From Immundisolibacter sp. (GTDB taxonomy: Bacteria; Pseudomonadota; Gammaproteobacteria; Immundisolibacterales; Immundisolibacteraceae), in contig NZ_JACIZD010000009.1 of the NCBI RefSeq assembly GCF_014359565.1, positions 1-64,000 of the forward strand: a stretch of DNA of 64,000 nt, given 5' to 3'. Both the position numbers and the translations under genes were made by a program. Positions within the stretch are counted from its first letter, which is position 1. Every line of letters starts with the position of its first letter. Under the pieces are notes generated by a model. The model was given only the letters and a program-made list of their open reading frames with translations, had not been told where the DNA came from and did no database searches. Shown one piece after another: positions 4,028 through 33,260 of the stretch.

Positions 4028-4762
4028 TCAGTGCGCGTTGCGGGCCGGGGGTGACCTGAACAGCAGCAGGCACAGCGTGATGAACGCCAGCAGCACAGCG
4101 CTGGCGGCAAAGCGATCCAGGCCGAGCCCACCGCTGGCCAGCGGTTTGTCCAGGAAGTCGCCGACCACGGCGCCGAGCGGGCGGGTCACCACGAAGGCCG
4201 ACCAGAACAGCACGGTGTGCGACAGCCGCGTCCAGCGGTAGGCGCCGGCCAGCGCGATCAGCAGACCACCGAACAGCGCCATGGCGCCCAGGTACCCCAG
4301 ACCCGCGGTGTCAGCGGTCCAGTCGCCCAGTGCCGTGCCCAGCGTTTGCGACAGCATGATGGTGAGCCAGTAAAACGCCTCCGCCGCGGGTGTGCCGACC
4401 GAACTGATGGTCACCGTGCCGAGCGTGCGCCGCCAGGTGGCGAGCGAGGCGATCAGCAGCAGCGCCAGCAGCAGGCTGCCGCCCGGATAGCCGATGCCCA
4501 GCGAGCGGGTGGCGAAGTCGGCCAGCGTCGTGCCCAGCATGGTGCTGGCGATCAGGGCGCTCCAGTACAGGGCCGGATGAAAGCGCCGGGCGACCGTCTG
4601 CGCGACTACGCCGGCCGCGAACACCACGGCGAAGATGCCGGTGGCGGCCAGATACCCCAGACCCAGCGACATGGACAGTGCGTCGCCGCCGGTCTCGCCC
4701 AGCGTGGTGGCGGCGATCTTGACCACCCAGAACAGCAGCGTGACTTCGGGCACCTTGCTCAT
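4028..4762 (-). CDS. DUF347 / COG4705 repeat membrane protein
   Basis: A 244-residue integral membrane protein built from four related two-helix repeats. Each carries a (T/Q)LGxxxGD-type signature: TTLGETGGDAL, TMLGTTLADF, QTLGTALGDW and RPLGAVVGDF. This is the DUF347 family of membrane-anchored proteins, whose biochemical role is unknown. The start ATG at 4760-4762 gives MSKVPEVTLLFW, a usual family N-terminus. A perfect 16-bp palindrome (4785-4800) and an array of 11-bp-spaced repeats (4845-4885) lie upstream. The array resembles the one in front of the glycosylation operon at 14060-14100. I infer common control by the two-component system at 14162-16169. About 200 bp separate its stop from gnd. 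Confidence 0.88.
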   Translation of the reverse strand: MSKVPEVTLLFWVVKIAATTLGETGGDALSMSLGLGYLAATGIFAVVFAAGVVAQTVARRFHPALYWSALIASTMLGTTLADFATRSLGIGYPGGSLLLALLLIASLATWRRTLGTVTISSVGTPAAEAFYWLTIMLSQTLGTALGDWTADTAGLGYLGAMALFGGLLIALAGAYRWTRLSHTVLFWSAFVVTRPLGAVVGDFLDKPLASGGLGLDRFAASAVLLAFITLCLLLFRSPPARNAH

Positions 4763-5008: not shown

Positions 5009-6463
5009 TCACGGTGCGCGATCGGCGGTGGGGGTCGAGCAGTCGGCGGCAAGCGTCAGTATTTGCGCGCTGCGCCGGCGCTTGAGGTACGGAGTGAAGC
5101 GCTCGCTGGCGCAGCGTTCGATGCCTTCCGGCAGCGCCGGCAGGCGCGCGTCTTCCATGACCAGCCGCACTGGGCCATGCGCCGCCTGCGCGCGCAGCCC
5201 GGCGGCGTCGACCACCGGAATCGGTGCGCCGTAGTAGTAGAGCAGCCGCGCATCGACCGGCGCGAGGCTGAGCACTGGGCCGGGACTGGCGCGCAGCGCC
5301 GCGGCCAGTTCGCCGAGACCCGTGTAGCGGTAGCGGTACAGCCGCGCCTCGCCGAAGGCGTAATAGCCGGCCCAGCCGACTGTCAGCAGCAGGCCGCCCA
5401 GGGCGATGACCTGCCAGCGCCGTCGCGACACGGCAGCGAAATCGGCCAGGCGCACGCCGATCAGTACGGCGGCGGCCGGATAGGCCGGCAGCAGGTACTT
5501 GGCGTGCTTGTTGGCCAGCAGCGACAACACCAGCAGCGGCAGCAGCAGGCCGGACAGATGCAGCCGGCCGGCCGGTGTGGCCCGCCAGACCCGCCAGCTG
5601 GCCCGCGGCGTGGCCAGCACGATCAGGCTCAGCGGCGCAAAGTCGCCCAGCAGCCACAGCAGGTAATTCCATGGCGGATCGAAGGCCATGCCATAGGCCT
5701 TGCCGGCCAGATCGGTGGCCGCCACCGGCGCCCACACCGCCGCGCCGAGCTTGGCCGTCACCAGCGCATACCAGGGCAGGGCAATCAGCAGCGCCAGCGC
5801 CCAGCCGCGCCAGTGGCCGAGCGCGTCGAGCGCCGCCCGCTGGCGGTGAAACAGGTAATGGCCAAGCAGCGGCGCCGGAAAGAACAGCAAGGCCACCGGC
5901 CCTTTGGTCAGCAGCGCCAGGCCCAGCAGCGCGTAGGCCAGATCCAGCCAGTGCCGGCGCCGATCGCTGAGCAGCCAATGGCTGGCTGCCAGCCAGGCGC
6001 CGCCGGCCAGCGCCGCGAACAGCATGTCGATCTCGGCGCGCCGGGCGAACATGCTGAAGCCCACGTTGCACAGCAGCGCCAGCACGGCAAAAGCCGCCGC
6101 CCATGAAGCGGTCGGCGTCTGGCGGCGCACGGCGCCATGCAATCCGGCCAGCAGCGCCAGCGCCGCCAGCGCCGAGGGCAGGCGCACCGCCCAGGCGTCG
6201 GCGGCGCCGCGCAGGTGGGCCACAGCCAGGCCCAGCCAGTAGTGCAGCGGCGGCTTGTCAACGTACACCGCGTCGTTCAGGCGCGGCACCAGCCAGTCGC
6301 CGCTGGCGTGCATGGTCTGGATCACCGCCGCGCGGCGGCCCTCGTTTTCCGACAGCAGCGGCAAGGCGCCGAGCCGCCACAGCAGCACGGCCAGCGCGAG
6401 CAGGGCGACGGTCGCGCCGTAGCGGCGCGCCGGTTGGGTGATCAGGGTCGGTTCAGCCGCCAC
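5009..6463 (-). CDS. ArnT-like GT-C glycosyltransferase (paralogue 3, Asn-Glu motif)
   Basis: About 484 residues, multi-spanning. N-terminal helix (ALLALAVLLWRLGAL), then the first periplasmic loop LLSENEGRRAAVIQTMHASG with DWLVPRLN and KPPLHYWL. These match ArnT/PMT-family (GT39/GT83) enzymes, which move a sugar from undecaprenyl phosphate to a periplasmic acceptor such as lipid A. The usual Asp-Glu pair of ArnT (DETRY) is Asn-Glu here. LLTKGPVA and NKHAKYLLPAYP are further family motifs. The start is uncertain: I chose GTG at 6461-6463, which overlaps the upstream gene by 22 bp; a CTG at 6443-6445 is the alternative. It is the last gene of the operon, with a soluble C-terminal segment after the last helix. 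Sugar and acceptor are unknown. Confidence 0.85.
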   Translation of the reverse strand: MAAEPTLITQPARRYGATVALLALAVLLWRLGALPLLSENEGRRAAVIQTMHASGDWLVPRLNDAVYVDKPPLHYWLGLAVAHLRGAADAWAVRLPSALAALALLAGLHGAVRRQTPTASWAAAFAVLALLCNVGFSMFARRAEIDMLFAALAGGAWLAASHWLLSDRRRHWLDLAYALLGLALLTKGPVALLFFPAPLLGHYLFHRQRAALDALGHWRGWALALLIALPWYALVTAKLGAAVWAPVAATDLAGKAYGMAFDPPWNYLLWLLGDFAPLSLIVLATPRASWRVWRATPAGRLHLSGLLLPLLVLSLLANKHAKYLLPAYPAAAVLIGVRLADFAAVSRRRWQVIALGGLLLTVGWAGYYAFGEARLYRYRYTGLGELAAALRASPGPVLSLAPVDARLLYYYGAPIPVVDAAGLRAQAAHGPVRLVMEDARLPALPEGIERCASERFTPYLKRRRSAQILTLAADCSTPTADRAP

Positions 6464-7950
6464 AGGCTCAGCTTGGGTTGGATGAGGAGGGCCTCGGCCT
6501 GCCAGCCGGGCGGTGGATCGAAGCGCTCGCCGGGCGCGAACAGGTACAGCGTGCCGCGCGCCGGCAAGTGTGCCGCCAGGTCGCCGGGCTCGACCGTCGG
6601 CACCAGCGCCTGCGCATAAAAGGCCAGTTCCACCTCGCGCAGGCCGAGCGCCAGCAGCGGCGCCCGGCCACGCGCGGCCTGGCCGGCCGCGCGCAGTTGC
6701 GCTGCAGTATCCGCATGGCGCGATAGGCCATAGGCTTCGCCCAGCCGGAAGGCACCCGTCATGACCACCGCCAGCAGCAGGGCGCCGGTCATGGCCTGCC
6801 GCCGACCGAGCCAGAGCAGGGCCACGCCGGCCAGCAGCGGCGCCAGCAGATAGCGCGCTCCGAGCAGCCAGGCGAAATAGCCGCCGGCGGCCAGCAGCAG
6901 GGCCGCGAAGCCATAGGCGGCCGCTTGCCAGGCGCGCGGCCGCGGCAAGCCGCTTGCCAACGTCTGACCGCACAGGATCGCCAGCGCCGGCGCCAGCAGC
7001 AGCGCGTACTGGATCTGCTTGTTGGTGTTGAGGCTCAGGACCACGAAGGTCACCAGCAGCCAGATCAGCACATAGCCCTGCAGGGCATCGCTCGGCCAGC
7101 GCCGGTAACGCCAGGCCAGGACCGGCAGCAGCGCCGACCACGGCGCGAAGTACAGAAACACCCGCGGCAGGTAGTACCAGGGCGGGCCGGGGTGGTCGCC
7201 GTGCAGATAGGTCTCGCTGATTTCGCGACCGAGGATGGCGGCCGTCGCCTCCGGGTGGTGCCGCCACAGCCACAGATACCAGGCGCCGCCGACGATGATC
7301 AGCAGCGCCACGCCCGGCGGCCAGATCAGCGTCCGCAGGCGCGTCCAGTGCCGGTTCAGGCCACACCACACGAGGCCCGCGAGCAGCGGCAACACGGCCG
7401 GCGGCAGACCCTTGGCCAGCGTACCGCCGGTGATGGCGGCCCACAGCACGGCCCGGCTGCCGGGCGCCGGGCGCGCCTCGCGTATCGCGGCCCAGGCGGC
7501 AAACGCGCCCAGGCTCACGAACAGCAGCAGCAGCGGATCGGTCTCGCCGGTATGGAAAAAACGCAGCGTGATGTGGCTGGAGGCCAGCACCGCCAGCGCG
7601 CCCAGCGCCGCCGGCTCGCCGAACTGGCGCCGCGTCCAGGCGGTCACCAGCAGCATCACACCGATCGCCGCCAAGGCCGCCGGCAGGCGGGCGGAGAACT
7701 CGTCCACGCGGCCGAGCAGGCGGTAACTGGCGGCGGTCAGCCAGTAGGCCAGCGGCGGCTTCTGGAAACGCAGCTCGCCGTTGAAGCGCGGCGTCAGGTA
7801 ATCGCCGCTGGCGAGCATCTCGCGCGCCGTCTCGGCCACGCGCAGCTCCTGGCTGCGGCTGATCGGTAGCGCGCCCAGTTGCCACAGGCAGCTGAGCGCC
7901 GCCAGCAGCAGCGCGATGGCGGCCGTCCGCCAGCCCGGATCAGTCACCAC
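6442..7950 (-). CDS. ArnT-like GT-C glycosyltransferase (paralogue 2, Gln-Glu motif)
   Basis: About 502 residues, polytopic. The first periplasmic loop reads ISRSQELRVAETAREMLASG then DYLTPRFN and QKPPLAYWL. It is the closest of the three to the ArnT pattern except that the first acidic residue of the Asp-Glu motif is Gln. GGTLAKGLPP and LNTNKQIQYALLLAPALAI correspond to the later lipid-sugar-binding motifs. GTG codons at 7948-7950 and 7945-7947 are both possible starts; they overlap the stop of the upstream gene (7940-7942), which implies translational coupling. The C-terminus is a soluble tail of about 100 residues. Known ArnT homologues act at the periplasmic face of the inner membrane. 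Substrate not predictable. Confidence 0.86.
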   Translation of the reverse strand: MVTDPGWRTAAIALLLAALSCLWQLGALPISRSQELRVAETAREMLASGDYLTPRFNGELRFQKPPLAYWLTAASYRLLGRVDEFSARLPAALAAIGVMLLVTAWTRRQFGEPAALGALAVLASSHITLRFFHTGETDPLLLLFVSLGAFAAWAAIREARPAPGSRAVLWAAITGGTLAKGLPPAVLPLLAGLVWCGLNRHWTRLRTLIWPPGVALLIIVGGAWYLWLWRHHPEATAAILGREISETYLHGDHPGPPWYYLPRVFLYFAPWSALLPVLAWRYRRWPSDALQGYVLIWLLVTFVVLSLNTNKQIQYALLLAPALAILCGQTLASGLPRPRAWQAAAYGFAALLLAAGGYFAWLLGARYLLAPLLAGVALLWLGRRQAMTGALLLAVVMTGAFRLGEAYGLSRHADTAAQLRAAGQAARGRAPLLALGLREVELAFYAQALVPTVEPGDLAAHLPARGTLYLFAPGERFDPPPGWQAEALLIQPKLSLWRLNRP

Positions 7951-9568
7951 ACAGGTGTTCCTCGGACAGATCGGACGCCAGCAACCTGACCGGCCACAGG
8001 CGCAGCGCGCCGCCCCGATAGGGCTGGGCATGAACGCCCGGCGGGGCGGCTTGCCAGCGTTCACACGGATAGACCACGTAACCGTCCCTGTGGGCAGCCG
8101 CCCAGGCGGGCAGTTGTTCGTCATGCAGGATGGTGAGCGGTTGGCGCAGGCGACCGAGGAACTGGAACTGGGCGTGGTATTTGCCGACGTGGGCGACCGG
8201 TGCGCCGTGCGCCTGCGCGGCGGCGATCCGTTCGGCGAATGCCGTCAGTCGGTAACGGGGAGCCAGTGCCTGCATGGCGCCAGCATAGAAGATGCCGAAA
8301 CCCAGCGCGAAGACGAGGCCGGTGCGGTAGCTCGCGGTTATGGGATCGCTGCGCTGCGGCCAGCCGATCAGTGCCGCCGCGAGCAACAGCGCGACCGGCA
8401 CATAGGAAGGAACGTGCCCCATCCATTCCTGTGTCGGGCGAGACCCTTGCAGGTGCGGTAGCACCAGCACGGCCAGGCCGCACACGGCCAGCAGCAGTGC
8501 CAGCGGCAGGCCGCTGCGCCGCGTGGTGGGCGTTTCGAGGTCGGCGAGCGCGCGCGCGGCGAGGACCGCCGCCGGCGCCAGCAGCGGCAGCAGGTAATGC
8601 GCCTGCTTGCCGCTGATGAGGCAAAAGATCAGCAGCGCGGGCAGCGTCGCGGTCAGGCAAAAGCGCACGCCGGCGTCGCCCGCGCCGCGCAGGCGGGCCA
8701 GTCCCCGGTACAGCGGCGGCCACAAGGTCCACGGCAGCGGCAGCGCCGGCAGCAGTTGCAGATACCACCACCAGGGCCGGCGGTGCGAGTAGCTGTGCAC
8801 CAGCCGGTCGCTGGTCTGGTGGATGCCGATGGCAGCGCCGTAGCTGGCGCCGGCGCGACCGATCGCCGGCCACAGCCAGGCGGCGAGGATGGCCGCACCA
8901 CCCAGCAGGCCCAGCAGCAGGCCGCCGTACCAGCGCCGCCACTGTCCGGTTTCGTTGCGACCGGCCCACCACCACGGCGCCAGCAGGGCCGCCGGCAGCG
9001 TGTGCAGCAGGATTACCGGGCCCTTGGTCAGCAGCCCGCCGCCGATGCCGAGCGCAAACCAGGCCCAGCGTCCGCGCCCCAGCGGCGGCGCAACCAGGGC
9101 GTTCAGGCACAGCAGGCTGAACACCGACAGCAGCGTGTCGAACATCACGGCGCCCGTGAACACCTGCCACAGCAGAGCGCTGGCCAGCAGCCAGGGCGCC
9201 AGGCGCGCCGCCTTTGGCTGCTGCGGCCACAGGTGTGCCGCCAGCCGGGCCGTGAGCAGCAAGCCGGCCATGGCCGCCAGCGTCGGCGCCAGGCGCGGCC
9301 ACCATTCGTTGACGCCCAACAGCGCCCAGCCGGCCTGCATGAGCCAGAACAGCAGGGGCGGCTTGTCGACGTATACGGCGCCGTTCTTGTACGGCACGAT
9401 GAAATCGCCGCGCAGCCACATTTCCCAGGCCACCGACAGGTAGCGGGTCTCGTCGATCGGCAGCAGCGGGCGGCACCACAGCCACAGCAGGCCGGTGAGC
9501 AGGGCCAGCGCCAGGGCCGGCCAGGCGCCGCTCGCCCAGCCGGGCGCGCAGGGTTGGGAGCCGCTCAT
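7940..9568 (-). CDS. ArnT-like GT-C glycosyltransferase (paralogue 1, canonical Asp-Glu)
   Basis: A 542-residue integral membrane glycosyltransferase. It keeps the full ArnT signature LPIDETRYLSVAWEM followed by GDFIVPYKNG and VDKPPLLFWL, including the Asp-Glu pair expected of an active GT-C enzyme. GLLTKGPVILLHTLPAAL and ISGKQAHYLLPLLAPAA are the conserved loop and helix elements. The ATG at 9566-9568 overlaps the stop of the preceding propeller gene (ATGA). It probably transfers a sugar from a polyprenyl-phosphate donor to lipid A or another envelope acceptor. Of the three paralogues this is the best candidate for standard catalysis. The context (GT2, aminotransferase, PmrA-like array) supports an amino-sugar transferase role. 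Confidence 0.9.
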   Translation of the reverse strand: MSGSQPCAPGWASGAWPALALALLTGLLWLWCRPLLPIDETRYLSVAWEMWLRGDFIVPYKNGAVYVDKPPLLFWLMQAGWALLGVNEWWPRLAPTLAAMAGLLLTARLAAHLWPQQPKAARLAPWLLASALLWQVFTGAVMFDTLLSVFSLLCLNALVAPPLGRGRWAWFALGIGGGLLTKGPVILLHTLPAALLAPWWWAGRNETGQWRRWYGGLLLGLLGGAAILAAWLWPAIGRAGASYGAAIGIHQTSDRLVHSYSHRRPWWWYLQLLPALPLPWTLWPPLYRGLARLRGAGDAGVRFCLTATLPALLIFCLISGKQAHYLLPLLAPAAVLAARALADLETPTTRRSGLPLALLLAVCGLAVLVLPHLQGSRPTQEWMGHVPSYVPVALLLAAALIGWPQRSDPITASYRTGLVFALGFGIFYAGAMQALAPRYRLTAFAERIAAAQAHGAPVAHVGKYHAQFQFLGRLRQPLTILHDEQLPAWAAAHRDGYVVYPCERWQAAPPGVHAQPYRGGALRLWPVRLLASDLSEEHLCGD

Positions 9569-10392
9569 CGTGGCGCCAGGTGCAGCAGCCGGTCGGCGCC
9601 CGTCTCTGCCAGGTACAGACCGCCATCGGGCGCCAGCGCGATGCCCTGTGGCTGGCGCAGGTGGCGGGCGATGACCTGCCGGCGGCCGTCCTTGATGCGT
9701 ACCAGCTCGCCACTGCGGTTCTGGCTGATGACGGCCCACAGGCTGCCGTCGGCGCCGCAGGCGAGCTGGTCGATGCCGTCCAGATCCCCGGCCAGGGTCT
9801 GGAGGCCGGCCGGACCCCAGGCCAGGATGCGCCCGCGACCGGATTCGGCGATGCCGATGCGGCCGTCCGGCAGCGTGCACAGGCCCTCCGGCCGGTCCAG
9901 GCCGTCCACCAGCGATACCGGCGCGGCGCCCTCGCGCAGCAGCCACAGGTGGCCCTGCGGTTGATCCTGTGCCACCAGCAGACTGCCGTCCGCACGGCGC
10001 AGCACGCCCTCCGGACTGTTCATGCGTCCCAGGACGCGCAGGGTCGCGTTGGCAAGGTCGTATTCCATGACACGGCCGTCGTCTTCTTCTTCGGTCACGA
10101 TCACGGTTCCTGGCCCCAGCAGCAGGCCATCGGGCTCGCCAAAGTCACCGAACACGACCCGCGGTCCGGTCGCAGTCAGTTCGAGCAAGCGGCCGGGCCG
10201 GGTTTGCGTGGTGACGTAGCGCGGCCGGCCGTCCTTGTCGAGCGCCAGACTGTCCGGCCGTGGCAGGTCGATCGTGTCGACCAGCTGCCAGCCGGTGGCC
10301 AGCCGCAATGGCCACAGCACGCCGTAGCCGGCAGCGCCCAGCACCGCCAGGGCGCCGAGCGCAGCCAGCGCGCTGCAATGGCGGCGTGGCAT
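9565..10392 (-). CDS. SMP-30/NHL-type beta-propeller protein, membrane-anchored
   Basis: 275 residues. An N-terminal hydrophobic segment (about residues 8-30, ALAALGALAVLGAAGYGVLW) could be a signal anchor placing the rest in the periplasm. After it come repeated propeller strands of the SMP-30/gluconolactonase/NHL type: RPDSLALDKDG, EPDGLLLGPG, SPEGVLRRADGS, RPEGLCTLPDG and QPQGIALAPDGG. Members are Ca2+-dependent lactonases or simple binding propellers. I cannot confirm the metal ligands, so enzymatic activity is open. It sits between the sugar dehydrogenase and the first GT-C gene, overlapping both by 1-4 bp. A role in sugar binding or lactone handling in the pathway is plausible but unproven. 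Confidence 0.75.
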   Translation of the reverse strand: MPRRHCSALAALGALAVLGAAGYGVLWPLRLATGWQLVDTIDLPRPDSLALDKDGRPRYVTTQTRPGRLLELTATGPRVVFGDFGEPDGLLLGPGTVIVTEEEDDGRVMEYDLANATLRVLGRMNSPEGVLRRADGSLLVAQDQPQGHLWLLREGAAPVSLVDGLDRPEGLCTLPDGRIGIAESGRGRILAWGPAGLQTLAGDLDGIDQLACGADGSLWAVISQNRSGELVRIKDGRRQVIARHLRQPQGIALAPDGGLYLAETGADRLLHLAPR

Positions 10393-11504
10393 CAGGCGAT
10401 CGCCCGGGGCGGCCGCTTTTTCGCCGTCAGCGGTACCCGGCCAAGCGGCGAGTGCTGCGGTGGGCTGCCCGGCACTACCGTGCCGCCGCCGACCCCGGCC
10501 TCGTACAGTGCCGTCAGCAGGGCGATGTTGCGCCGGCCTTCGGCGCCGTCCACCAGCCAGGGGTGCGGCGGCGCGCCGCGCAGGGTGTCGATCACCGCCT
10601 TCAGGTAACGGGCGTGACCGTTGCCGTATTCGTTCTTTACCGCCTCGCTGGCCGCCTGCATCACCTGCTGCGGATCGTCGCCGTCACCGGCGAAGCGCCA
10701 CTGGGCCAGTTGATTGACGGCGATGCCGGCGATGACCACCGAGCCGTGTTCCCCAAGCACGCTGAGCGACCCTTCCAGATTGTCCGGGCGCGCCGCCACG
10801 GTGGCCTCGTACACGCCGAGTGCCCCGGAGCGAAAGCGCAGCAGGGCGGCGGCGGTGTCCTCGACCTCGATGTCGAGCAGGCGCGTGGCGATCTGGCACT
10901 GCACCGACTCCACCGGGCCCATGAACCACTGCAGCAGGTCCAGGTGATGGCTGGCCTGCTGCGACATGACGCCGCCGTCCAGCGCCCAGGTGCCGTGCCA
11001 GTCGTCCTGCTCGTAGTAGTCCTGGTGGCGGCACCAGCGCACGCGCACGGTGCCGAGCACCGGCGTGCCGAAGCGCTCGGCTTCCAAGGCCCGGCGTGCC
11101 GCCTGCACCGGCGTGTTGAAGCGGTTCTGGTAGACCACGTACAGCGGCGCGTGGTGGGCGGCGCAGGCGCTGATCATGGCGTCGCAGTCGGCCACCGTCA
11201 GCGCCATCGGCTTCTCGACCACGATGGCGCGCCCGTACTGCGAAAGGTCGACCACCACCCGCGCGTGGTAACCGGTGGGCACCAGCACGTGGATCAGCTC
11301 GATCTCGGGGTGCGCGGCCAGCATGGCGTGGTAGTCGGCGTAGCCCGGCACGCCGTGGGCGGTGGCAGTGCTTGCAGCCTTGGCCGGATCGCTGTCGCAC
11401 ACCGCCACCAGGCGCGCCTCGCTCATTTCGGCGATGGCGTCGAAGTGCTTGTAGGCGACGCGGCCACAGCCGACCACGGCCACGGCGACCGGTTCATGCT
11501 TCAT
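10392..11504 (-). CDS. Gfo/Idh/MocA-family sugar-nucleotide dehydrogenase (GnnA/WlbA-like)
   Basis: 370 residues. N-terminal Rossmann fold with VAVVGCGRVAYKH (about residues 8-20) and the family EKP motif (VVEKPMALT). The following segment, NRFNTPVQ, then WCRHQDYYEQDDWHGTWALD and GGVMSQQASHHLDLLQWFMG, is the pattern I know from WlbA/WbpB and GnnA. Those enzymes oxidise C3 of UDP-GlcNAc(A) so that a DegT transaminase can make the 3-amino sugar. The DegT gene at 12897-14009 in the same operon makes this reading attractive. The exact substrate is inferred, and other Gfo/Idh members act on free sugars. Its stop and the next gene's start share one base. Confidence 0.85.
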   Translation of the reverse strand: MKHEPVAVAVVGCGRVAYKHFDAIAEMSEARLVAVCDSDPAKAASTATAHGVPGYADYHAMLAAHPEIELIHVLVPTGYHARVVVDLSQYGRAIVVEKPMALTVADCDAMISACAAHHAPLYVVYQNRFNTPVQAARRALEAERFGTPVLGTVRVRWCRHQDYYEQDDWHGTWALDGGVMSQQASHHLDLLQWFMGPVESVQCQIATRLLDIEVEDTAAALLRFRSGALGVYEATVAARPDNLEGSLSVLGEHGSVVIAGIAVNQLAQWRFAGDGDDPQQVMQAASEAVKNEYGNGHARYLKAVIDTLRGAPPHPWLVDGAEGRRNIALLTALYEAGVGGGTVVPGSPPQHSPLGRVPLTAKKRPPRAIA

Positions 11505-12165
11505 AGTGTTCTCCAGGTTCGATTTCCCGCCAGCGGCGGTACACGTGCAAGCCGCCGCCGGCCAGCGCCAGCAACATCAGCGCGGCGGCCGCCACCTGTG
11601 CCAGCGACACCCACAGCGAGGTCTTGCCAAGGCCGCTGCCGAGCAGGGCCAGCGGTATGCCTTCCGGCAGAAAGCCCAGAAAGGTGCCGAGCAAGAACAC
11701 ACCGACCGGAGCGTGCCGCACGCCCAGCGCGAGGCTGATCACGGCGCTGGCGATCGGCAGCTGCCGCAGCACGAACACCGCCAGCACCGTGCGCTGATCC
11801 AGCAGCCGGCGCAGGCCGGGATGATGGGCCAGCCGCGCCTGCACCCAGGCGCGGCCGGCCGAACGGGCAGTCGAGAAGGTAATGACCGCGCCGAGCGTGG
11901 CGCCTAGCTGGGCGTACAACAGCCCGGCGGCGAAGCCGAAGGCCATGCCACCCAGGAAATACAGCGCCAGGCGCGGCACGCCGATGGCGCTGAGCAGTCC
12001 ACCGCCGAGCACGAACCACAGCGGCGCCAGCGCGCCCTGGCGGTCCAGCCAGGACTTGATCTGCTGATAGTCGTCGAGCCGTGTACCCAGCGACGTGCCG
12101 TGCAGCAGGAACAGCACGGCCAGTACCGCGGCCACCAGCAACAACGGCCGGTAACGCGCGCTCAT
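11494..12165 (-). CDS. TVP38/TMEM64 (DedA/SNARE-associated) membrane protein
   Basis: 223 residues with an N-terminal helix, then the DedA/VTT-domain core: YFLGGMAFGFAAGLLYAQLG, STARSAGRAWVQ, VFVLRQLPIASAVISLALG and GTFLGFLPEGIPLALLGSG. The FxxRxxP-like and re-entrant loop motifs are typical. Other DedA-superfamily proteins have been shown to translocate undecaprenyl phosphate across the membrane. In an operon that loads a sugar on undecaprenyl phosphate, such a protein could flip the loaded carrier or recycle the empty one. That role is inferred from context. The start is set at ATG 12163-12165; the frame upstream of it overlaps the GT2 gene and is not protein-like. Confidence 0.85.
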   Translation of the reverse strand: MSARYRPLLLVAAVLAVLFLLHGTSLGTRLDDYQQIKSWLDRQGALAPLWFVLGGGLLSAIGVPRLALYFLGGMAFGFAAGLLYAQLGATLGAVITFSTARSAGRAWVQARLAHHPGLRRLLDQRTVLAVFVLRQLPIASAVISLALGVRHAPVGVFLLGTFLGFLPEGIPLALLGSGLGKTSLWVSLAQVAAAALMLLALAGGGLHVYRRWREIEPGEHYEA

Positions 12166-12181
12166 GCGCCGAAAGTGCGCA

Positions 12182-12904
12182 TCAATCTTCCGACACGCGA
12201 TCCACGCGCAGCGCCCGGCGCTGATACCAGCGCACACCGAAGCAATCGGCCAGGCCCCGCCACAGGCGGTTGTTGATGCCGTACTTGGACACGCCAAAGC
12301 GGCGCGCGCGGTCGTTGATGGGGATTTCGGTGACTGCGCCACCCTGCGCCTTGATCAGCGTCGGCAGGAAGCGGTGCATGCCGTTGAAGACCGGTATCTC
12401 GACCAGCGCCCGGCGCCGGATCAGGCGATAGGTGCAGCCGGCATCGCGCAGCCGGTCGCCGGTGATGGCGGCCCGAAAGCGGTTGGCGGTGCGCGAGGCA
12501 AAGCGCCGCAGCCAGCCTTCCTGGCGCTCGGCCCGGTAACCGCACACGCAGTCCAGGTCGGCGCGCAGCGCCGCCAGGTAGCGCGGAATGTCGGCCGGGT
12601 CGTTCTGCAGATCGGCGTCCATGGTCAGCACCAGCTCGCCGCGGGCGGCGCGAAAGCCGGTGGCCTGGCCGGCGCTCTCGCCGCTGTTGATGCGGTGCGT
12701 GAGCACGCGCACGCGCGGCTCGGCGGCGGCCAGGCGGGCCAGCACCTGCGCGCTGGCGTCGGTGCTGGCGTCGTTCACGAACAGCACCTCCCAGGGCCGG
12801 CCGAGCCCGTCGAGCACCGGCGCGAGCTCGGCCAGCAGTGGTTCGAGGTTGTCCTGTTCGTTGTAGACCGGGATCACCACCGACAGCTGCGGCGCCTCAG
12901 GCAT
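12182..12904 (-). CDS. GT2 polyprenyl-phosphate glycosyltransferase (ArnC/DPM1-like)
   Basis: 240 residues. GT-A fold signature SVVIPVYNEQDNLEPLL near the N-terminus, FVNDASTDAS, and the metal-binding TMDADLQNDPADIP (Asp-x-Asp and the QNDP of polyprenyl-phosphate transferases). Enzymes of this group move a sugar from a nucleotide to undecaprenyl phosphate on the cytoplasmic side. Unlike E. coli ArnC it has no C-terminal membrane helices, so it resembles DPM1. It overlaps the aminotransferase gene by 8 bp and is followed after 16 bp by the TVP38 gene. It probably makes the lipid-linked donor used by the three GT-C enzymes of the same operon. Confidence 0.9.
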   Translation of the reverse strand: MPEAPQLSVVIPVYNEQDNLEPLLAELAPVLDGLGRPWEVLFVNDASTDASAQVLARLAAAEPRVRVLTHRINSGESAGQATGFRAARGELVLTMDADLQNDPADIPRYLAALRADLDCVCGYRAERQEGWLRRFASRTANRFRAAITGDRLRDAGCTYRLIRRRALVEIPVFNGMHRFLPTLIKAQGGAVTEIPINDRARRFGVSKYGINNRLWRGLADCFGVRWYQRRALRVDRVSED

Positions 12905-14009
12905 GGAACGCCTCCACGGCGTCGCACACGCGCTCGACCTCGGCCGGCGTCAAACCCGGAAACATCGGCAGCGACAGGCAGCTGGCGCAGGCCTCCTCCG
13001 CCACCGGCAGGCTGCCCGGCCCCAGATTGAGGCGTGCGTAGGCAGGCTGGCGGTGCAGCGCGATCGGGTAGTGCAGGCCGGTACGTATGCCCAGCTCATG
13101 CAAATGCGCGGCCAGCGCCTCGCGCTGCTGGGTGCGCACCACATAGACGTGGTAGATGTGCTCGGCGCCGTCGCGCTGCACCGGCAGCTGCAGCCAGTCC
13201 AGGTGCCCCAGGCGTTGCCGGTACTGGTCGGCGATGGCGCGCCGGGCCTCATTCCAGGCCGCCAGGTGCGGCAGGTTCACCCGCAGCAGCGCCGCCTGCA
13301 GCGTGTCCAGGCGGCTGTTGGTGCCCTCGAAGTCGTGGCGGAATTTGTCCTCCCGGCCGTGGTTCGAGTACATGCGAATCTTCTTCAGCAGCGCCGGGTC
13401 ACGGGCGATGACGGCCCCACCGTCGCCGAAACCGCCCAGGTTCTTGGACGGGAAAAAACTGTACACGCCGGCGTCGCCAAAGCTGCCGAGCGCCTGGCCG
13501 TGCAGCTGCGCACCGACCGCCTGGGCGCAGTCCTCGACCACCCACAGCGCATGCGCGCGCGCCAGCGGCAGCAGCCGGTCCAGGTCCGCGGCGTGGCCAT
13601 ACAGGTGCACCGGCACGATGGCGCGGGTGCGCGGCGTGATGCGCCGGGCCACGTCATCCGGATCGAGCGTGCAGGTGTCCGGCTCGATGTCGGCGAACAC
13701 CACCTGCGCGCCGGCCAGGGTCACCGCCTCGGCGGTGGCGATGGCCGTGTGCGCCGGCACGATCACCTCGTCGCCGGGGCCGATGCCAAGCGCATGCAGT
13801 GCGGCGTGCAGGCCGGCCGTGGCGTTGGCGACGCCGACGCTGGCGGCGACACCGAGCGCGGTGGCGAATTCCGCCTCGAATACCCGTACCGCCTTGCCGC
13901 CGATGAAGTCGCAGTCGGCGAGTGTCTGGCAGGCCGCCGCTTGCAGTGCCGGCAGCAGCGGTGCGTACTGACGGCGCAAATCGACCAGCGGGACGGGTGC
14001 ATCCGGCAT
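12897..14009 (-). CDS. DegT/DnrJ/EryC1/StrS-family sugar aminotransferase (GnnB/ArnB-like)
   Basis: 370 residues. PLP-dependent transaminase of nucleotide-linked keto sugars. It shows VPLVDLRRQYAPL at the N-terminus, GVANATAGLHAALHALGIGP, DEVIVPAHTAIATAEAV, VEDCAQAVGAQ and the PLP-lysine motif FFPSKNLGGFGDGGAV. The frame is open a further 12 codons upstream, but ATG at 14007-14009 gives the family N-terminus and has GGAAG six bases before it. It is the first gene of the eight-gene operon, directly behind the 11-bp-repeat array. With the Gfo/Idh dehydrogenase it could form a GnnA/GnnB-type pair; with ArnC- and ArnT-like genes it could equally be ArnB-like. The sequence alone cannot decide between these. 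Confidence 0.92.
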   Translation of the reverse strand: MPDAPVPLVDLRRQYAPLLPALQAAACQTLADCDFIGGKAVRVFEAEFATALGVAASVGVANATAGLHAALHALGIGPGDEVIVPAHTAIATAEAVTLAGAQVVFADIEPDTCTLDPDDVARRITPRTRAIVPVHLYGHAADLDRLLPLARAHALWVVEDCAQAVGAQLHGQALGSFGDAGVYSFFPSKNLGGFGDGGAVIARDPALLKKIRMYSNHGREDKFRHDFEGTNSRLDTLQAALLRVNLPHLAAWNEARRAIADQYRQRLGHLDWLQLPVQRDGAEHIYHVYVVRTQQREALAAHLHELGIRTGLHYPIALHRQPAYARLNLGPGSLPVAEEACASCLSLPMFPGLTPAEVERVCDAVEAFHA

Positions 14010-14034
14010 CAGGGCTTCCCGAAGTGGGGTGGAG

Positions 14035-14060
14035 GGTGCGCGCATGCTAGTGAGCGCACC
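14035..14060. repeat. Inverted repeat in leader of the glycosylation operon
   Basis: GGTGCGC (14035-14041) and GCGCACC (14054-14060) form a perfect 7-bp inverted repeat with a 12-base loop. It lies between the regulator array and the DegT start codon and may be a leader hairpin or an operator. Confidence 0.4.
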
Positions 14061-14100
14061 GTCAAGGCCGCGTCAGGGAACCGTCAGGAAAGCGTTAAGG
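14060..14100 (-). promoter_or_regulatory. Four 11-bp-spaced direct repeats (PmrA/OmpR-type box)
   Basis: Units CGTCAAGG (14060), CGTCAGGG (14071), CGTCAGGA (14082) and CGTTAAGG (14093) start exactly 11 bp apart. Read in the direction of the operon they are CCTTGACG, CCCTGACG, TCCTGACG and CCTTAACG. The PmrA/BasR box of enterobacteria is YTTAAK-N5-YTTAAK, also with an 11-bp period. The array lies 51-91 bp in front of the DegT start and directly downstream of the sensor-kinase gene. A further CGTTAAG at 14124-14130 is out of phase. I infer binding of the response regulator at 15450-16169. Confidence 0.7.
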
Positions 14101-14103
14101 AAA

Positions 14104-14120
14104 CGCTGAAGTGTTCAGCG
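14104..14120 (-). terminator. Hairpin behind the sensor kinase gene
   Basis: CGCTGAA (14104-14110) and TTCAGCG (14114-14120) form a perfect 7-bp stem with a GTG loop. It begins about 40 bp beyond the kinase stop codon. It may separate the regulator transcript from the DegT operon, or it may be a diverged inverted half-site of the adjacent array. No U tract follows. Confidence 0.4.
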
Positions 14121-14161
14121 CTTCGTTAAGCAAGGGGCATTGCAGGGCACCGGATTCGACG

Positions 14162-15460
14162 TCACTGCTGCCGGTGTGAGACCTCGCCGCCGAACCACAA
14201 CTCGAAGCGCATCCCCGCGGGCAAGACCTGCGCCTGCACCTGCCAGCCGCTGCGTTCGCAGATGCGCTGCACGATGGCAAGGCCGAGTCCTTCGCCGCCG
14301 GGTATTTCCGGCGCCAGGCGCCGGTGGCGGTCGAAGGCCCGGGGGATGTCGCTTTCCTGCAAGCCCGTGCCGCTGTCCTGCACCACCACCGCGTCGGCGC
14401 GTACGGTGATGTGTACCGTGCCTTCCGGTGCGTAACGGACGGCATTGTCCAGCAGGTTGCGCACGGCGACGGTGAGCAGGGTGGGCGGACAGTTCAGGCT
14501 CGGTTCGGCCTGTTCCTCCACCACGATGGGCGGCGTGCCGGGCGCCGCCTGTGCGCGTATGCGCCGCACTTCCGCCTGTACCACGGCGTTTACCGAACAG
14601 GGCGGGTGCTGACCGGGCGGGGCGGCGGTAGGCGTCCGGCTCAGGGTCAGGAAGGCATCGATCAGGTCCTGCATTTCCTGTGCCGCGAGGTGAATGCGCG
14701 TGACGGCGCTGCGCGCGCGTGGCAGAAGTTCCGAGCGGGCCAGCAGGGTTTCGGCAGCGCCGGCGATGATGGCGGCCGGCGTGCGCAGCTCGTGGCTGAC
14801 GTCGCTGGTGAACAGCCGTTCGCTGGCGATGAACCCCTGCAGTTGCCGCAGGCGCTGTTCGAACACGCGTGCCAGTTGGCCGATCTCGTCGTCGGCAAAG
14901 CCGGTTGCCAGGTGCCGGGGGGCGCGCGCCGGATCGGCCCGGCGCACGCGTCGCGCGAGGCGGACCACCGGCTCGAGCACGCTGCTGGCGATCAGTCGGG
15001 CGAGCAGGAGCGCCGCCAGCACGGACACCACGGTGCCGCCCAGCAGCACCGCAAACCAGCCCCGCTCCCTGTTTTCCAGCGCGGATGCGTCCCTGACCAG
15101 GTAATAACGCCGACCGGCGTGGTCCCGGCGCACCACATGATAGGTGTCGTGGCCGTCGAACACTTCGCGCCAGCCGCGTTCCTGCTGGGCCAGGAACGGT
15201 GGCAGTTGCCCTGCCGGCATGTCTGGCGTGACGTAAAGGCGTGTCCGGTTGGCGAGGGTCAGCGGCTGCGGTTGCGGCGTCTCGCCCAGGTGGTTGATCC
15301 ACCAGTGCAGATCACCTTCGAGCTGGCTCACGAACAGGTTTTCCTCGAATTCCTCGATGGCTACGAACGTGACCAGCGAGAACAGGCCCGACACCGCGGC
15401 GGTCATCGCCACAAAGGCCACCACCAGCCGCTGGCGCAGCGGCGTGCGCTTAATCGCCAC
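14162..15460 (-). CDS. Sensor histidine kinase (PmrB/QseC-like)
   Basis: 432 residues. Membrane helix at about 16-35 (AAVSGLFSLVTFVAI), a periplasmic loop of roughly 100 residues, and a second helix near 135-160 (VLLGGTVVSVLAALLLARLI). Then come HAMP, a HisKA domain with phospho-acceptor His in DVSHELRTPAAI, and an HATPase domain with NLLDNAVRYAPEG, DSGTGL and GGEGLGLAIVQRI. It starts with GTG (15458-15460), overlapping the response-regulator stop by 11 bp. The partner gene and the PmrA-like repeat array just downstream suggest that it senses envelope stress such as cationic peptides or metals. The signal itself cannot be read from the loop. Confidence 0.9.
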   Translation of the reverse strand: MAIKRTPLRQRLVVAFVAMTAAVSGLFSLVTFVAIEEFEENLFVSQLEGDLHWWINHLGETPQPQPLTLANRTRLYVTPDMPAGQLPPFLAQQERGWREVFDGHDTYHVVRRDHAGRRYYLVRDASALENRERGWFAVLLGGTVVSVLAALLLARLIASSVLEPVVRLARRVRRADPARAPRHLATGFADDEIGQLARVFEQRLRQLQGFIASERLFTSDVSHELRTPAAIIAGAAETLLARSELLPRARSAVTRIHLAAQEMQDLIDAFLTLSRTPTAAPPGQHPPCSVNAVVQAEVRRIRAQAAPGTPPIVVEEQAEPSLNCPPTLLTVAVRNLLDNAVRYAPEGTVHITVRADAVVVQDSGTGLQESDIPRAFDRHRRLAPEIPGGEGLGLAIVQRICERSGWQVQAQVLPAGMRFELWFGGEVSHRQQ

Positions 15461-16169
15461 CGGGCGCTGCCAGGCGGTAACCGATGCCGCGGACGGTTTC
15501 GATCAGCGGGCTCGCAAACGGCCGGTCGACCGCCTGGCGCAGACCATGTATGTGCGTGCGCAGGGCATCGCTGTCGGGCGGCAGGTCTGGCCACAGCACG
15601 CGTTCCAGTTCGCTGCGCCGCACCAGGCGTGGCGCGGCGCGCAGCAGGGTCTCCAGCAATTTGAGTTCGGTCGGCGTCAGCGCGAGCGCTTGCCCGGCGC
15701 GCACGGCGCGGGCATTGGCGACGTCCAGTACCAGATCGGCGAAGCGCAGCAGTGACTCCCCGACCGGTTGGCTGCGCCGCAGCAGGGCCTCGATGCGGGC
15801 TTCGAGTTCCGCCAGCGCGAACGGCTTGACCAGGTAGTCGTCCGCGCCGGCGCGCAGGCCCGCCACACGCTGCTCGACCGCATCGCGGGCGGTCAGCATC
15901 AGGATCGGCGTGCGCCGGCCCTGGTCGGCCCGCAGCCGCCGGCACAGTTCCAGGCCGTCCAGGCGCGGCAGGCTCAGGTCCAGCACGATCAGGTCGTAGG
16001 CGCCGCTGCTGGCCAGGGCCAGCCCGGCGAGTCCGTCGCGCGCCGAATCGAGCTCGTAGCCCTGGTCCTCGAAATAGTCGTAGAGGTTCTGCAGCAGGGC
16101 CGCGTTGTCCTCGATGAACAACACCCGAACGCGCGGCGCCGCGGTGTCGCGCTCACGACCCAGAGTCAT
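15450..16169 (-). CDS. OmpR/PhoB-family response regulator (PmrA/QseB-like)
   Basis: 239 residues. Receiver domain with the acidic pair FIEDN (residues 19-22), phospho-acceptor Asp64 in VLDLSLPRLDG, and Lys115 in VKPFALAELEARI. It is followed by a winged-helix DNA-binding domain ending HIHGLRQAVDRPF and IETVRGIGYRL. ATG at 16167-16169. It is transcribed together with the kinase. The two arrays of 11-bp-spaced half-sites in the window (14060-14100 and 4845-4885) are the sort of site this subfamily binds. I therefore take it as their regulator, with the glycosylation operon and the DUF347 gene as targets. Confidence 0.93.
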   Translation of the reverse strand: MTLGRERDTAAPRVRVLFIEDNAALLQNLYDYFEDQGYELDSARDGLAGLALASSGAYDLIVLDLSLPRLDGLELCRRLRADQGRRTPILMLTARDAVEQRVAGLRAGADDYLVKPFALAELEARIEALLRRSQPVGESLLRFADLVLDVANARAVRAGQALALTPTELKLLETLLRAAPRLVRRSELERVLWPDLPPDSDALRTHIHGLRQAVDRPFASPLIETVRGIGYRLAAPGGD

Positions 16170-16366: not shown

Positions 16367-17815
16367 TCACAAATACGGCGAGAACAGCCAGCACAGCGCG
16401 TCCCGGGTGCGCACGGCAAGGCGGCGCTGGCTGATTTCGGTCAGTGTCACCGGGCGCGAACGCTCCCAGGCGGTCGCGAAATGATCCGCCAGCAGGGTGT
16501 TCAGGGCCGCGTCGTACAGCTCGACATTGAGCTCGAAGTTCAGGCGCAGGCTGCGCGGGTCCAGATTCGCCGAACCGACCTGTGCGTAGTCCTCGTCGAT
16601 CAGCAGCAGCTTGCTGTGCACGAACGGCGGCGGCTGGTAGCGCACTTCGACGCCGTGCTGCAGCAGCTCCCACAGCATGTTGCGCGTGGCCCAGTGCACG
16701 TAGGGCAGGTTGTTCTTGCCCGGCAGCAGCACCGACACCTGCACGCCGCGCAGGGCCGCCGCCTGCAGGGCGCCCAGCAGCTCGCGCGATGGCAGGAAGT
16801 AGGGCGTCATGATGCAGATGCGCCGTTGCGCCGCCGACACGGCCACCAGCAGCACCAGCGCCAGGCGGTCCAGGTCCTCGTTGGGGCCGTCGGTGATCAC
16901 CCGGCAGGACGCACTGCCCGGGCCGCTGCCGGCGGGCGCCGGTTCCGGCAGCGCCTGGCCGGTGGCGAAATGCCAGTCCTCGGCGAACACGCTTTCCATC
17001 TGGCCGACCACCGGCCCGCGCAGGCGCAGGTGCAGGTCGATCACCCGGTTGCGGCCGCCGCCGGCCACGCAGTGGTAGTCGGCGATGTTCATGCCGCCGG
17101 TGAAGGCGACTTCGCCATCGACCACCAGCACCTTGCGGTGATTGCGCATGTTCACGTGCAGGCTGGGCGGCCACAGGCGCAGCGGCAGGAACTCGGCCAC
17201 CCGCACGCCGGCTTCCTTGAGCAGTGGCCGTGCCCGCGCCGCCGTGTACCACTGGCCAAGGCCATCGATCAGCACGCACACCGTCACGCCGCGGCGCTGA
17301 GCGGCCTTGAGCGCGTCGATCAGGTCGCGCGCCGCGCCGCTGGCGCCGAAGATGTAGGTCGACAGGTAGATGTAGCGCTCGGCCGAGCGGATGGCCTCGA
17401 TCATGGCCGGGTAGGCCTGCTCGCCGTTGTGCAGCAGTTCGGCCGTGTTGCCCGGCAGGCAGGGGCGATGGCTGATGCGGCCGGAGGCGCGGGCAATCGG
17501 ACCGCCCGGTCCGCCCGCGCTGGCCGGGACATCGGGTGGCGCCGGTTCGGCATCCTCCGCCTGCTCGTAGCCAAACTCCAGCGGCAGCGCAAGGCGCCCG
17601 TGCAGGCGCCGGGCACGGGTGCGGATGCGGTTCACGCCGAACGCCAGGTACAGCAGCGGCCCGCCCAGCGGCAGCAGCAGGGTGATGCCGATCCAGGCCA
17701 GCGCGGAGCGCGGCTCGCGTTTGGTCAGCAGGGCATGCCAGGCGCACAGTAGGCTAAGGCCCGTGTGCAGGCTAAGGACCAGCCAGCCGACCGCCGCCGG
17801 CAGTTCGAATGCCAT
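16367..17815 (-). CDS. cls: Cardiolipin synthase (phospholipase D family)
   Basis: 482 residues. Two N-terminal membrane helices (about 5-25 and 35-60, LSLLCAWHALL and ITLLLPLGGPLLYLAFG) precede two phospholipase-D domains, each with an HxK(x)4D motif: NHRKVLVVDG in the first and VHSKLLLIDEDYAQVGSANL in the second. That is the layout of ClsA-type enzymes, which join two phosphatidylglycerols to cardiolipin and glycerol. Start ATG 17813-17815; the open frame upstream of it runs antisense-like through adhC. It follows adhC by 11 bp and probably shares its transcript. Its stop lies 197 bp from the envelope-stress regulator genes. Confidence 0.93.
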   Translation of the reverse strand: MAFELPAAVGWLVLSLHTGLSLLCAWHALLTKREPRSALAWIGITLLLPLGGPLLYLAFGVNRIRTRARRLHGRLALPLEFGYEQAEDAEPAPPDVPASAGGPGGPIARASGRISHRPCLPGNTAELLHNGEQAYPAMIEAIRSAERYIYLSTYIFGASGAARDLIDALKAAQRRGVTVCVLIDGLGQWYTAARARPLLKEAGVRVAEFLPLRLWPPSLHVNMRNHRKVLVVDGEVAFTGGMNIADYHCVAGGGRNRVIDLHLRLRGPVVGQMESVFAEDWHFATGQALPEPAPAGSGPGSASCRVITDGPNEDLDRLALVLLVAVSAAQRRICIMTPYFLPSRELLGALQAAALRGVQVSVLLPGKNNLPYVHWATRNMLWELLQHGVEVRYQPPPFVHSKLLLIDEDYAQVGSANLDPRSLRLNFELNVELYDAALNTLLADHFATAWERSRPVTLTEISQRRLAVRTRDALCWLFSPYL

Positions 17816-17826
17816 GCCGGACCGGC

Positions 17827-18936
17827 CTAGAACAGGATCACGCTGCGGATGCTCTGGCCGGCATGCATCAGCTCGAAGGCGTGGTTGATCTGCTCCAGCG
17901 GCAGGGTGTGGGTGACGAACTCGTCCACGTGAATCTGTCCGGCCAGGTAGCGGTCCACGTAGCCGGGCAGCTGCGAGCGCCCCTTGACGCCGCCAAACGC
18001 GCTGCCGCGCCACACCCGGCCGGTGACCAGCTGGAAGGGCCGGGTGCGGATTTCCTCGCCGCCGCCGGCCACGCCGATGATGGTCGACTCGCCCCAGCCC
18101 TTGTGGCAGCACTCCAGCGCCGCGCGCATCACATCCACGTTGCCGATGCACTCGAAGGAATAGTCGACGCCGCCGTCGGTCAGCTCGACGATCACGTCCT
18201 GGATCGGCGCCGCATGCTCGGCGGGGTTCACGCAGTCGGTGGCGCCCAGCTGTCGCGCCAGCTCGAACTTGGCGGGGTTCAGGTCGACACCGATGATGCG
18301 TGCGGCGCCGGCCATCACCGCGCCCTGCACGGCGCTAAGACCGATCGCGCCCAGACCGAACACCGCCACCGTCGATCCGGGCTGCACCTTGGCGGTGTTG
18401 AGCACCGCGCCGATGCCGGTGGTGATGCCGCAGCCGAGCAGGCACACCTTGTCCAGTGGCGCGGCGGGGTTGATCCTGGCCACGGCGATTTCCGGCAGCA
18501 CCGTGTATTCGCTGAAGGTGGAGGTGCCCATGTAGTGGAAGACGGTCTTGCCGCGGGCGGTGAAGCGCGACGTGCCGTCCGGCATCAGGCCCTTGCCCTG
18601 CGTGGCGCGGATGGCCTGGCACAGGTTGGTCTTGCCCGAGGTGCAGAACGCGCACTGGCCGCACTCGGGCGTGTACAGCGGAATCACGTGATCGCCGGGC
18701 TTGAGCGTGGTGACGCCGGGGCCGATGTCCTCGACGATGCCGCCGCCCTCGTGGCCCAGGATGGCCGGGAACACGCCCTCCGGGTCGCGGCCGGACAGGG
18801 TGTAGGCATCGGTGTGGCACACACCGGTCGCCACCATGCGCACCAGCACCTCGCCGGCCTTGGGTCCGGCCACTTCGACCTCGTCGATTTCCAGCGGCTG
18901 GCCGGCGGCCCAGGCGATGGCGGCGCGTGCTTTCAT
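17827..18936 (-). CDS. adhC: S-(hydroxymethyl)glutathione dehydrogenase / class III alcohol dehydrogenase
   Basis: 369 residues, the normal length of FrmA/AdhC. Zinc-dependent medium-chain dehydrogenase that oxidises the glutathione adduct of formaldehyde with NAD+. Catalytic zinc ligands lie in [12 protein letters not shown] and [15 protein letters not shown]. The structural zinc site has four Cys in [17 protein letters not shown], and the coenzyme motif is [12 protein letters not shown]. The usual partner gene for S-formylglutathione hydrolase is not next to it. ATG 18934-18936 gives the family N-terminus; a longer frame upstream is not conserved-looking. It probably heads an adhC-cls transcript. 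Confidence 0.95.
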
Positions 18937-33155: not shown

Positions 33156-33165
33156 GGGCCGGTAG

Positions 33166-33190
33166 GTTGGGCTGACGCAGGAAGCCCAAC
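33166..33190. repeat. REP-like hairpin GTTGGGCT...AGCCCAAC
   Basis: A perfect 8-bp inverted repeat (33166-33173 and 33183-33190) with a 9-base loop, 10 bp behind the stop of the secreted-protein gene. It belongs to the widespread GTAGGTTGGGCTGA-type intergenic palindromes and may also act as the terminator. It overlaps the first copy of the 46-bp direct repeat. Confidence 0.6.
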
Positions 33191-33228
33191 ATCGTTTACA
33201 CCGGGAATACCCGAGCACAAAGGTTGCC
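33183..33228 (+). repeat. 46-bp direct repeat, copy 1
   Basis: It begins AGCCCAACATCG and contains TACACCGGGAATAC and GCACAAAGG. It matches copy 2 at 33605-33650 at about 41 of 46 positions, in the same orientation, 422 bp apart. The pair brackets the 92-residue minus-strand gene. Confidence 0.65.
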
Positions 33229-33260
33229 GGCTGTAACCTGGCGCTTATTGCGGCCGCGGC

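Follow-up and report, generated by a model that had tools for sequence, protein, structure and literature searches.

Which envelope modification is encoded by a gene block that follows the logic of the Arn pathway with a different set of enzymes, and how would its lipid-linked sugar cross the membrane? The block lies in a stretch of 64,000 nucleotides (the window, contig C9) from the genome of the soil bacterium Immundisolibacter sp. (G000; 3.09 Mb, rated 100% complete). Read on the minus strand from position 16169 to 5009, it comprises a response regulator, a kinase, a DegT aminotransferase, a family 2 glycosyltransferase (GT2), a VTT-domain membrane protein, a WlbA-type dehydrogenase, an NHL propeller and three C-fold glycosyltransferases (GT-C), here called GTa, GTb and GTc (Table 1). 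A sequence-only reading had listed the genes in this order, and Pfam and PDB matches find all of them in place. The block unites a GT2 synthase, one membrane partner and GT-C in one operon, the set that characterizes three-component polyprenyl-phosphate sugar systems. We consider it probable that the operon is a two-component-controlled, three-component undecaprenyl-phosphate-aminosugar glycosylation system that has a sugar supply of its own.

The gene block is not chance, because it is kept as a whole in the sister species Immundisolibacter sp. STE_186 (G001, locus L100; 64-88% identity per protein) and because its core recurs in other phyla. From degT through GTc, neighboring genes overlap or lie within approximately 16 bases of each other, a spacing as in one operon; 116 bases separate the kinase gene from the earliest possible start of degT. 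In the operon-less G002, a complete genome of the same genus, no WlbA-like, GT2 or regulator orthologue was found, and a WlbA search of 95 relatives revealed the operon in the sister species only. Other good WlbA matches in G070, G017, G081, G027 and G036 were set aside, since no GT2, VTT or GT-C gene adjoins WlbA there.

The core was sought by scanning species genomes with the dehydrogenase, followed by a search of the class Kiritimatiellia. DegT-GT2-VTT-WlbA occur in identical order in the two Immundisolibacter species and in five Kiritimatiellia-class genomes (L102, L209, L210, L211 and L212), so that the proposed look for the same gene order elsewhere yielded a positive answer. Identities to the Kiritimatiellia-class copies amount to 51-57% for DegT, 52-59% for GT2 and 53-58% for WlbA. 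In quick trees without bootstrap, the cassette WlbA proteins form one clade and the cassette DegT proteins another, the latter apart from ArnB, each with a Shimodaira-Hasegawa-like approximate likelihood ratio (SH-aLRT) of 100. Given the same order and the single clades of both enzymes, the cassette has either been transferred or been retained across phyla as one piece.

Within the Kiritimatiellia class, the core keeps company with arn genes. In L209 it is divergent from a full arnB-arnC-arnA-arnD-arnT set, of which ArnA reaches 1078.6 bits (cut-off 777) and the other four stay somewhat below their cut-offs. A GT-C gene and arnA adjoin the core in L210, and a GT-C gene adjoins it in L102. The arn operon of L209 (5417-13747) also carries a second GT-C gene directly after arnT, to which the GT-C gene beside the cassette in L210 is related. 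ArnA was found in five of the six cassette genomes of the class (split over two contigs in one of them) versus 22 of 187 others (p 2e-4), or in four of six at the strict cut-off (p 0.003); the Kiritimatiellia sample, like that of the GT2 loci below, is phylogenetically non-independent, and these p values, uncorrected for relatedness, overstate significance. Thus, the core is an addition to Arn in Kiritimatiellia and stands alone in Immundisolibacter.

The GT2, an enzyme of 240 amino acids, has no membrane helices of its own, and its best NCBIfam match is ArnC with 136.5 bits (cut-off 529), covering model positions 7-212 of 316. It belongs to a clade of short enzymes without the C-terminal part of ArnC that is common in its class. 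At 68 loci of this clade (one genome being counted twice and one gene lying at the end of a contig), the next gene downstream encodes a VTT protein in 17 cases and a LAB_N protein in 37; it is of neither kind in 14, and no locus combines the two. The chance of zero overlap is 6e-8. At ten long-GT2 control genes, neither VTT nor LAB_N occupies the slot. Moreover, a G-x-[P/S]-R motif is present in all 19 slot VTT proteins and in none of the 19 readable other VTT proteins of the searched genomes. The exclusive slot and the motif rule out that VTT stands beside GT2 by chance, and together they point to a slot for an undecaprenyl-phosphate-sugar flippase. The VTT protein is the best candidate for this carrier-flipping step. 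In an AlphaFold2 model (mean predicted local distance difference test, pLDDT, of 85), the arginine of the motif (R65) and the invariant R134 each sit at an interruption between helices; we read these sites as the tips of re-entrant hairpins, with the motif near the first tip. A PDB fold search with this model gave no significant match. The protein shares the VTT domain superfamily with the DedA/UptA undecaprenyl-phosphate translocases, and the VTT domain itself passes its cut-off; it differs from them in its private motif, in the pairing of its gene with GT2, and in a UptA model score of 22.4 bits, far below the cut-off of 250.

LAB_N is classed among the PQ-loop proteins, and their clan also contains MPDU1, needed for the use of dolichol-phosphate sugars (PMC3281891). 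Three-component systems already employ different flippase families, namely small multidrug resistance (SMR)/GtrA and multidrug and toxic compound extrusion (MATE) proteins (PMC11127046). A parallel operon in G162 and G272 combines GT-C, a different Gfo/Idh dehydrogenase, DegT, GT2 and LAB_N, as if amino-sugar genes had joined the GT2/slot/GT-C module more than once. Its loci (L069:6442-11420 and L083:4809-9776) belong to a gammaproteobacterial genus and carry LAB_N instead of VTT.

Which sugar is supplied is suggested by the two enzymes flanking GT2 and VTT. The best PDB matches of the dehydrogenase are 3q2i and 3q2k, the characterized WlbA of Bordetella/Chromobacterium, with 259 bits over nearly the full length, the next PDB match reaching 79 bits; a model of the archaeal UDP-GlcNAc 3-dehydrogenase also matches (94 bits). 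A previous label, GnnA/WlbA-like, is thereby kept as to the Gfo/Idh/MocA family and narrowed to WlbA-like. DegT obtains 212 bits with the ArnB model (cut-off 631) and falls outside the ArnB branch. In the wlb pathway, C3 oxidation, transamination and acetylation are the middle steps, between C6 oxidation and 2-epimerization. It begins with oxidation of UDP-GlcNAc at C6, and 2-epimerization comes last (PMC10622841). A hexapeptide N-acetyltransferase, looked for beside the cassettes only and not genome-wide, is found at none of the seven cassettes versus 56 of 64 other WlbA-DegT loci (p 5e-6). Since the cassettes have no 3-N-acetyltransferase, the amine at C3 of their UDP-sugar product is expected to be free; the simplest such product would be UDP-GlcNAc(3N)A. 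A TviB-type UDP-GlcNAc 6-dehydrogenase-like protein is encoded in G000 (535 bits, just under the cut-off of 592) and in every cassette genome (fragmented in G418, and with an identity of only 37% in G546), so that UDP-N-acetylglucosaminuronic acid (UDP-GlcNAcA) is likely available to the cell. Judged by sequence, the nearest characterized route is wlb/wbp minus the acetyltransferase, leading to a 3-amino sugar rather than to 4-amino-4-deoxy-L-arabinose (Ara4N).

All three transferases belong by their matches to the ArnT superfamily and are not ArnT equivalogs. With PMT_2 (cut-off 26.1), GTb (46.6) and GTc (56.1) pass and GTa (21.4) fails; the GTa-family profile matches nothing in the PDB but ArnT (5ezm/5f15; E 2.8e-29), and phmmer searches of the PDB likewise return only ArnT for GTb (E 2.2e-24) and GTc (E 2.8e-13). 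They are the three best ArnT-model matches of the genome, and the highest ArnT equivalog score in the operon is 95.6 bits (GTb; cut-off 567). The sequence-only reading had called them ArnT-like, which agrees with ArnT as the sole PDB relative of each. GTa represents the transferase form often linked to this GT2 clade. The propeller of the sequence-only reading is present as well, but not under the SMP-30 label, as NHL passes with 39.2 bits and SGL/SMP-30 remains below its cut-off with just 20.6. Probably periplasmic, the NHL protein was seen only in the two Immundisolibacter operons, between dehydrogenase and transferases.

The regulator and kinase resemble PmrAB in a general way only. Their best NCBIfam scores, 185 bits for PmrA (cut-off 330) and 105 bits for PmrB (cut-off 314), miss the thresholds, so that the former designation as PmrAB-like survives for a two-component pair with 11-bp-phased repeats and no further. 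These repeats form a candidate operator of four half-sites (CTTAACG, CCTGACG, CCTGACG and CTTGACG); PmrA boxes are tandem repeats with 11-bp phasing, which the site, predicted from sequence, resembles. Three double-box matches occur between the kinase gene and degT versus none in 100 shuffles, and the triple repeat, with up to one mismatch allowed, is found solely at this place in G000 and in G001 and not in G002. An orthologue of the regulator stands beside the operon in G001 (83% identical; kinase 65%), and none above 45% exists in operon-less G002. With a unique candidate operator and a regulator whose orthologue is missing from the operon-less relative, the two-component system appears dedicated to the operon. 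A sigma-70 promoter scan found nothing. In other gammaproteobacteria, GT2-LAB_N is directly preceded by two-component genes at L080:6984-11723 and L086:5791-10277, where amino-sugar genes are lacking and GT-C comes after the module (L080) or before it (L086); a regulator joined to such a module is not peculiar to this operon.

How does the operon compare to known systems? With Arn (PmrHFIJKLM), the polymyxin-resistance pathway that adds Ara4N to lipid A, it shares the logic of a UDP-amino sugar, GT2 transfer to undecaprenyl phosphate, transport, periplasmic ArnT-type transfer and two-component control. This parallel had been drawn before and is well founded, since parts for a nucleotide amino sugar, GT2, membrane protein and ArnT-superfamily transferase are all present in the operon; in the Kiritimatiellia genome L209, the core itself sits beside arnBCADT. 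It departs from Arn by a predicted C3-amino sugar from WlbA and DegT instead of a C4-amino pentose, by the VTT protein in the place of the flippase, and by three transferases. The reported lack of arnA extends to the whole genome G000, where the best ArnA-model match scores 133 bits (cut-off 777); ArnD and SMR-type ArnE/F are absent from the operon, whose proteins were scanned without a genome-wide search. The claim that different enzymes stand in the place of Arn is correct in that ArnA is absent here, but they are not a simple stand-in: Kiritimatiellia core genomes are enriched in ArnA, and PVC (Planctomycetota-Verrucomicrobiota-Chlamydiota) genomes carry both, which rules out simple replacement of Arn by the core.

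Compared with the GtrA-GtrB-Gtr and GT136 pentofuranose systems, the operon shares a polyprenyl-phosphate sugar synthase, a candidate flippase and a GT-C transferase. It is distinguished by a GT2 without membrane helices, by VTT or LAB_N in the slot rather than GtrA/SMR or MATE, and by amino-sugar genes and a regulator of its own. Lgm (glucosamine, GlcN, in Bordetella) and Flm/NaxD (galactosamine, GalN, in Francisella) likewise dispense with ArnA and supply an ArnT-type transferase with an amino hexose linked to undecaprenyl phosphate, adding GlcN or GalN by deacetylation of the carrier-linked sugar. In contrast, our operon encodes no deacetylase and instead pairs a dehydrogenase with a transaminase. 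From wlb/wbp, which makes UDP-GlcNAc(3NAc)A or ManNAc(3NAc)A for O-antigen with a WlbA-type 3-dehydrogenase and a DegT 3-aminotransferase as well, it differs in lacking the N-acetyltransferase (WlbB/WbpD) and the 2-epimerase, in enzymes with clades of their own, and in its linkage to GT2-VTT-GT-C instead of O-antigen genes. The open-licence literature yielded no description of this gene set, in keeping with the earlier statement that no such pathway was known.

Gene anatomy together with conservation speaks strongly for a mechanism, whose enzymatic steps, operator binding, sugar, acceptor and signal we infer from sequence. The WlbA-type enzyme would oxidize a UDP-N-acetyl sugar at C3, its most likely substrate being UDP-GlcNAcA supplied by the TviB-type 6-dehydrogenase encoded elsewhere, and DegT would aminate C3, the amine staying free as the cassette has no acetyltransferase. 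In the cytoplasm, GT2 would then load the 3-amino sugar onto undecaprenyl phosphate; the VTT protein would bring the lipid-linked sugar to the periplasmic face or return the spent carrier, and the three ArnT-superfamily transferases would attach the sugar to lipid A, core or other envelope glycans, with lipid A a plausible acceptor. The response regulator would bind the four phased repeats before degT and turn the operon on.

The sugar itself admits a neighboring solution, UDP-GlcNAc3N made by GnnA/GnnB-type steps on UDP-GlcNAc by the same machine; the transferred sugar would then be plainly cationic and not zwitterionic. The match to the archaeal model speaks for it, a free amine suits Arn-like charge masking, and the parallel operon of G162/G272 pairs a Gfo/Idh protein nearer to the archaeal model (110 bits) with DegT, GT2 and LAB_N; we nevertheless regard it as unlikely, since WlbA of Bordetella/Chromobacterium fits the dehydrogenase far better and UDP-GlcNAcA is likely at hand. 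Much less credible still is an ordinary wlb/wbp O-antigen pathway that lost its acetyltransferase and came by chance to lie beside unrelated transferases. The relatedness of WlbA and DegT to wlb/wbp enzymes fits this, but several findings already disfavor it: the gene order is identical in another phylum, both enzymes fall into clades apart, neighboring genes overlap, the operon has a candidate operator of its own, and the cassettes uniformly lack the acetyltransferase. As to the acceptor, we doubt that the operon decorates a target other than lipid A or the lipopolysaccharide (LPS) core, such as O-antigen, capsule or periplasmic proteins, in the manner of Gtr and GT136. Known GT2/flippase/GT-C systems mostly modify O-antigens (PMC11127046), and three different transferases suggest several acceptors or positions; yet all three match ArnT alone in the PDB, the PVC core is linked to arnBCADT, and no O-antigen genes lie directly beside the operon.

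The most serious competitor concerns the VTT protein, which may recycle bare undecaprenyl phosphate or scramble phospholipid instead of flipping the sugar-linked carrier, an option we rate below even. COG0586 DedA homologues recycle undecaprenyl phosphate (PMC10127716), and in Burkholderia the addition of Ara4N to lipid A depends, by way of membrane energetics, on a DedA protein (PMC7835334). Against this, the slot is filled by VTT or by LAB_N, from the clan of MPDU1 (the function of LAB_N itself being putative), and general recycling would need no dedicated partner beside each GT2. Returning to the flippase reading, we tentatively extend it, with about the same reserve: G-x-[P/S]-R slot VTT proteins may be undecaprenyl-phosphate-monosaccharide flippases, evolutionarily interchangeable with LAB_N/PQ-loop proteins, that serve a new free 3-amino uronic acid envelope modification spread between phyla as one cassette. 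Several points weigh against our interpretation. According to a published argument, VTT proteins of the COG0398 type, to which the slot proteins may belong, do not act as flippases of undecaprenyl phosphate (PMC10127716). The cassette is not always intact, as in L101 (PVC) VTT-WlbA stands apart from DegT-GT2, which is on another contig (L192), and L213 (PVC) shows VTT-WlbA alone. The TviB-type 6-dehydrogenase is also encoded in operon-less G002 and does not fix the substrate; found with and without the operon, it is not decisive as a substrate test. Our reading accounts neither for the propeller nor for the number of three transferases in each operon, and the non-independent samples temper the statistics.

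Table 1. Genes and candidate operator of the operon, with positions in the window.
Feature	Position	Strand	Evidence or location
OmpR/PmrA-type response regulator	15450..16169	-	Pfam Response_reg + Trans_reg_C
Sensor histidine kinase	14162..15460	-	Pfam HisKA + HATPase_c
Candidate operator, four CYTRACR half-sites	14060..14099	-	between kinase gene and degT
DegT/WlbC-type sugar 3-aminotransferase (putative)	12897..14009 (alternative start 14045)	-	Pfam DegT_DnrJ_EryC1 372.6 bits
Short GT2, putative polyprenyl-phosphate sugar synthase	12182..12904	-	Pfam Glycos_transf_2
VTT-domain (TVP38/DedA superfamily) membrane protein, G-x-[P/S]-R subfamily, candidate flippase	11494..12165	-	VTT_dom 61.9 bits (cut-off 33.9)
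WlbA-type Gfo/Idh/MocA putative UDP-sugar 3-dehydrogenase	10392..11504	-	Pfam GFO_IDH_MocA (three domains); PDB 3q2i/3q2k
NHL-repeat beta-propeller, N-terminal hydrophobic segment	9565..10392	-	Pfam NHL 39.2 bits
GT-C transferase GTa (ArnT superfamily)	7940..9568	-	GTa-family profile vs PDB: ArnT
GT-C transferase GTb (ArnT superfamily)	6442..7947	-	PMT_2 46.6 bits
GT-C transferase GTc (ArnT superfamily), GTG start likely 6463	5009..6463	-	PMT_2 56.1 bits

Of the two possible degT starts, 14009 is most likely because the sister species starts there. Downstream of GTc, at a distance of 246 bases and on the same strand, a membrane protein with four DUF347 repeats (4028-4762) may or may not be part of the operon. 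Upstream of the regulator lies a phospholipase D/cardiolipin-synthase-like gene (16367-18151), whose counterpart in G001 has the same location and 72% identity. The GC content of the window is about 70% overall, falling to 62-64% at 1-2000 and 32001-34000 and ranging from 68 to 76% in the rest.

Flipping of undecaprenyl-phosphate sugars is the least certain step of such pathways, and the VTT-or-LAB_N slot with its private motif names two candidate flippase families that are directly testable. The cassette moreover predicts a surface sugar foreign to Arn chemistry, with a free 3-amine and perhaps a carboxylate. The genes for this predicted sugar are found beside arn genes in uncultured PVC bacteria and, in Immundisolibacter, together with a regulator of their own and a candidate operator.

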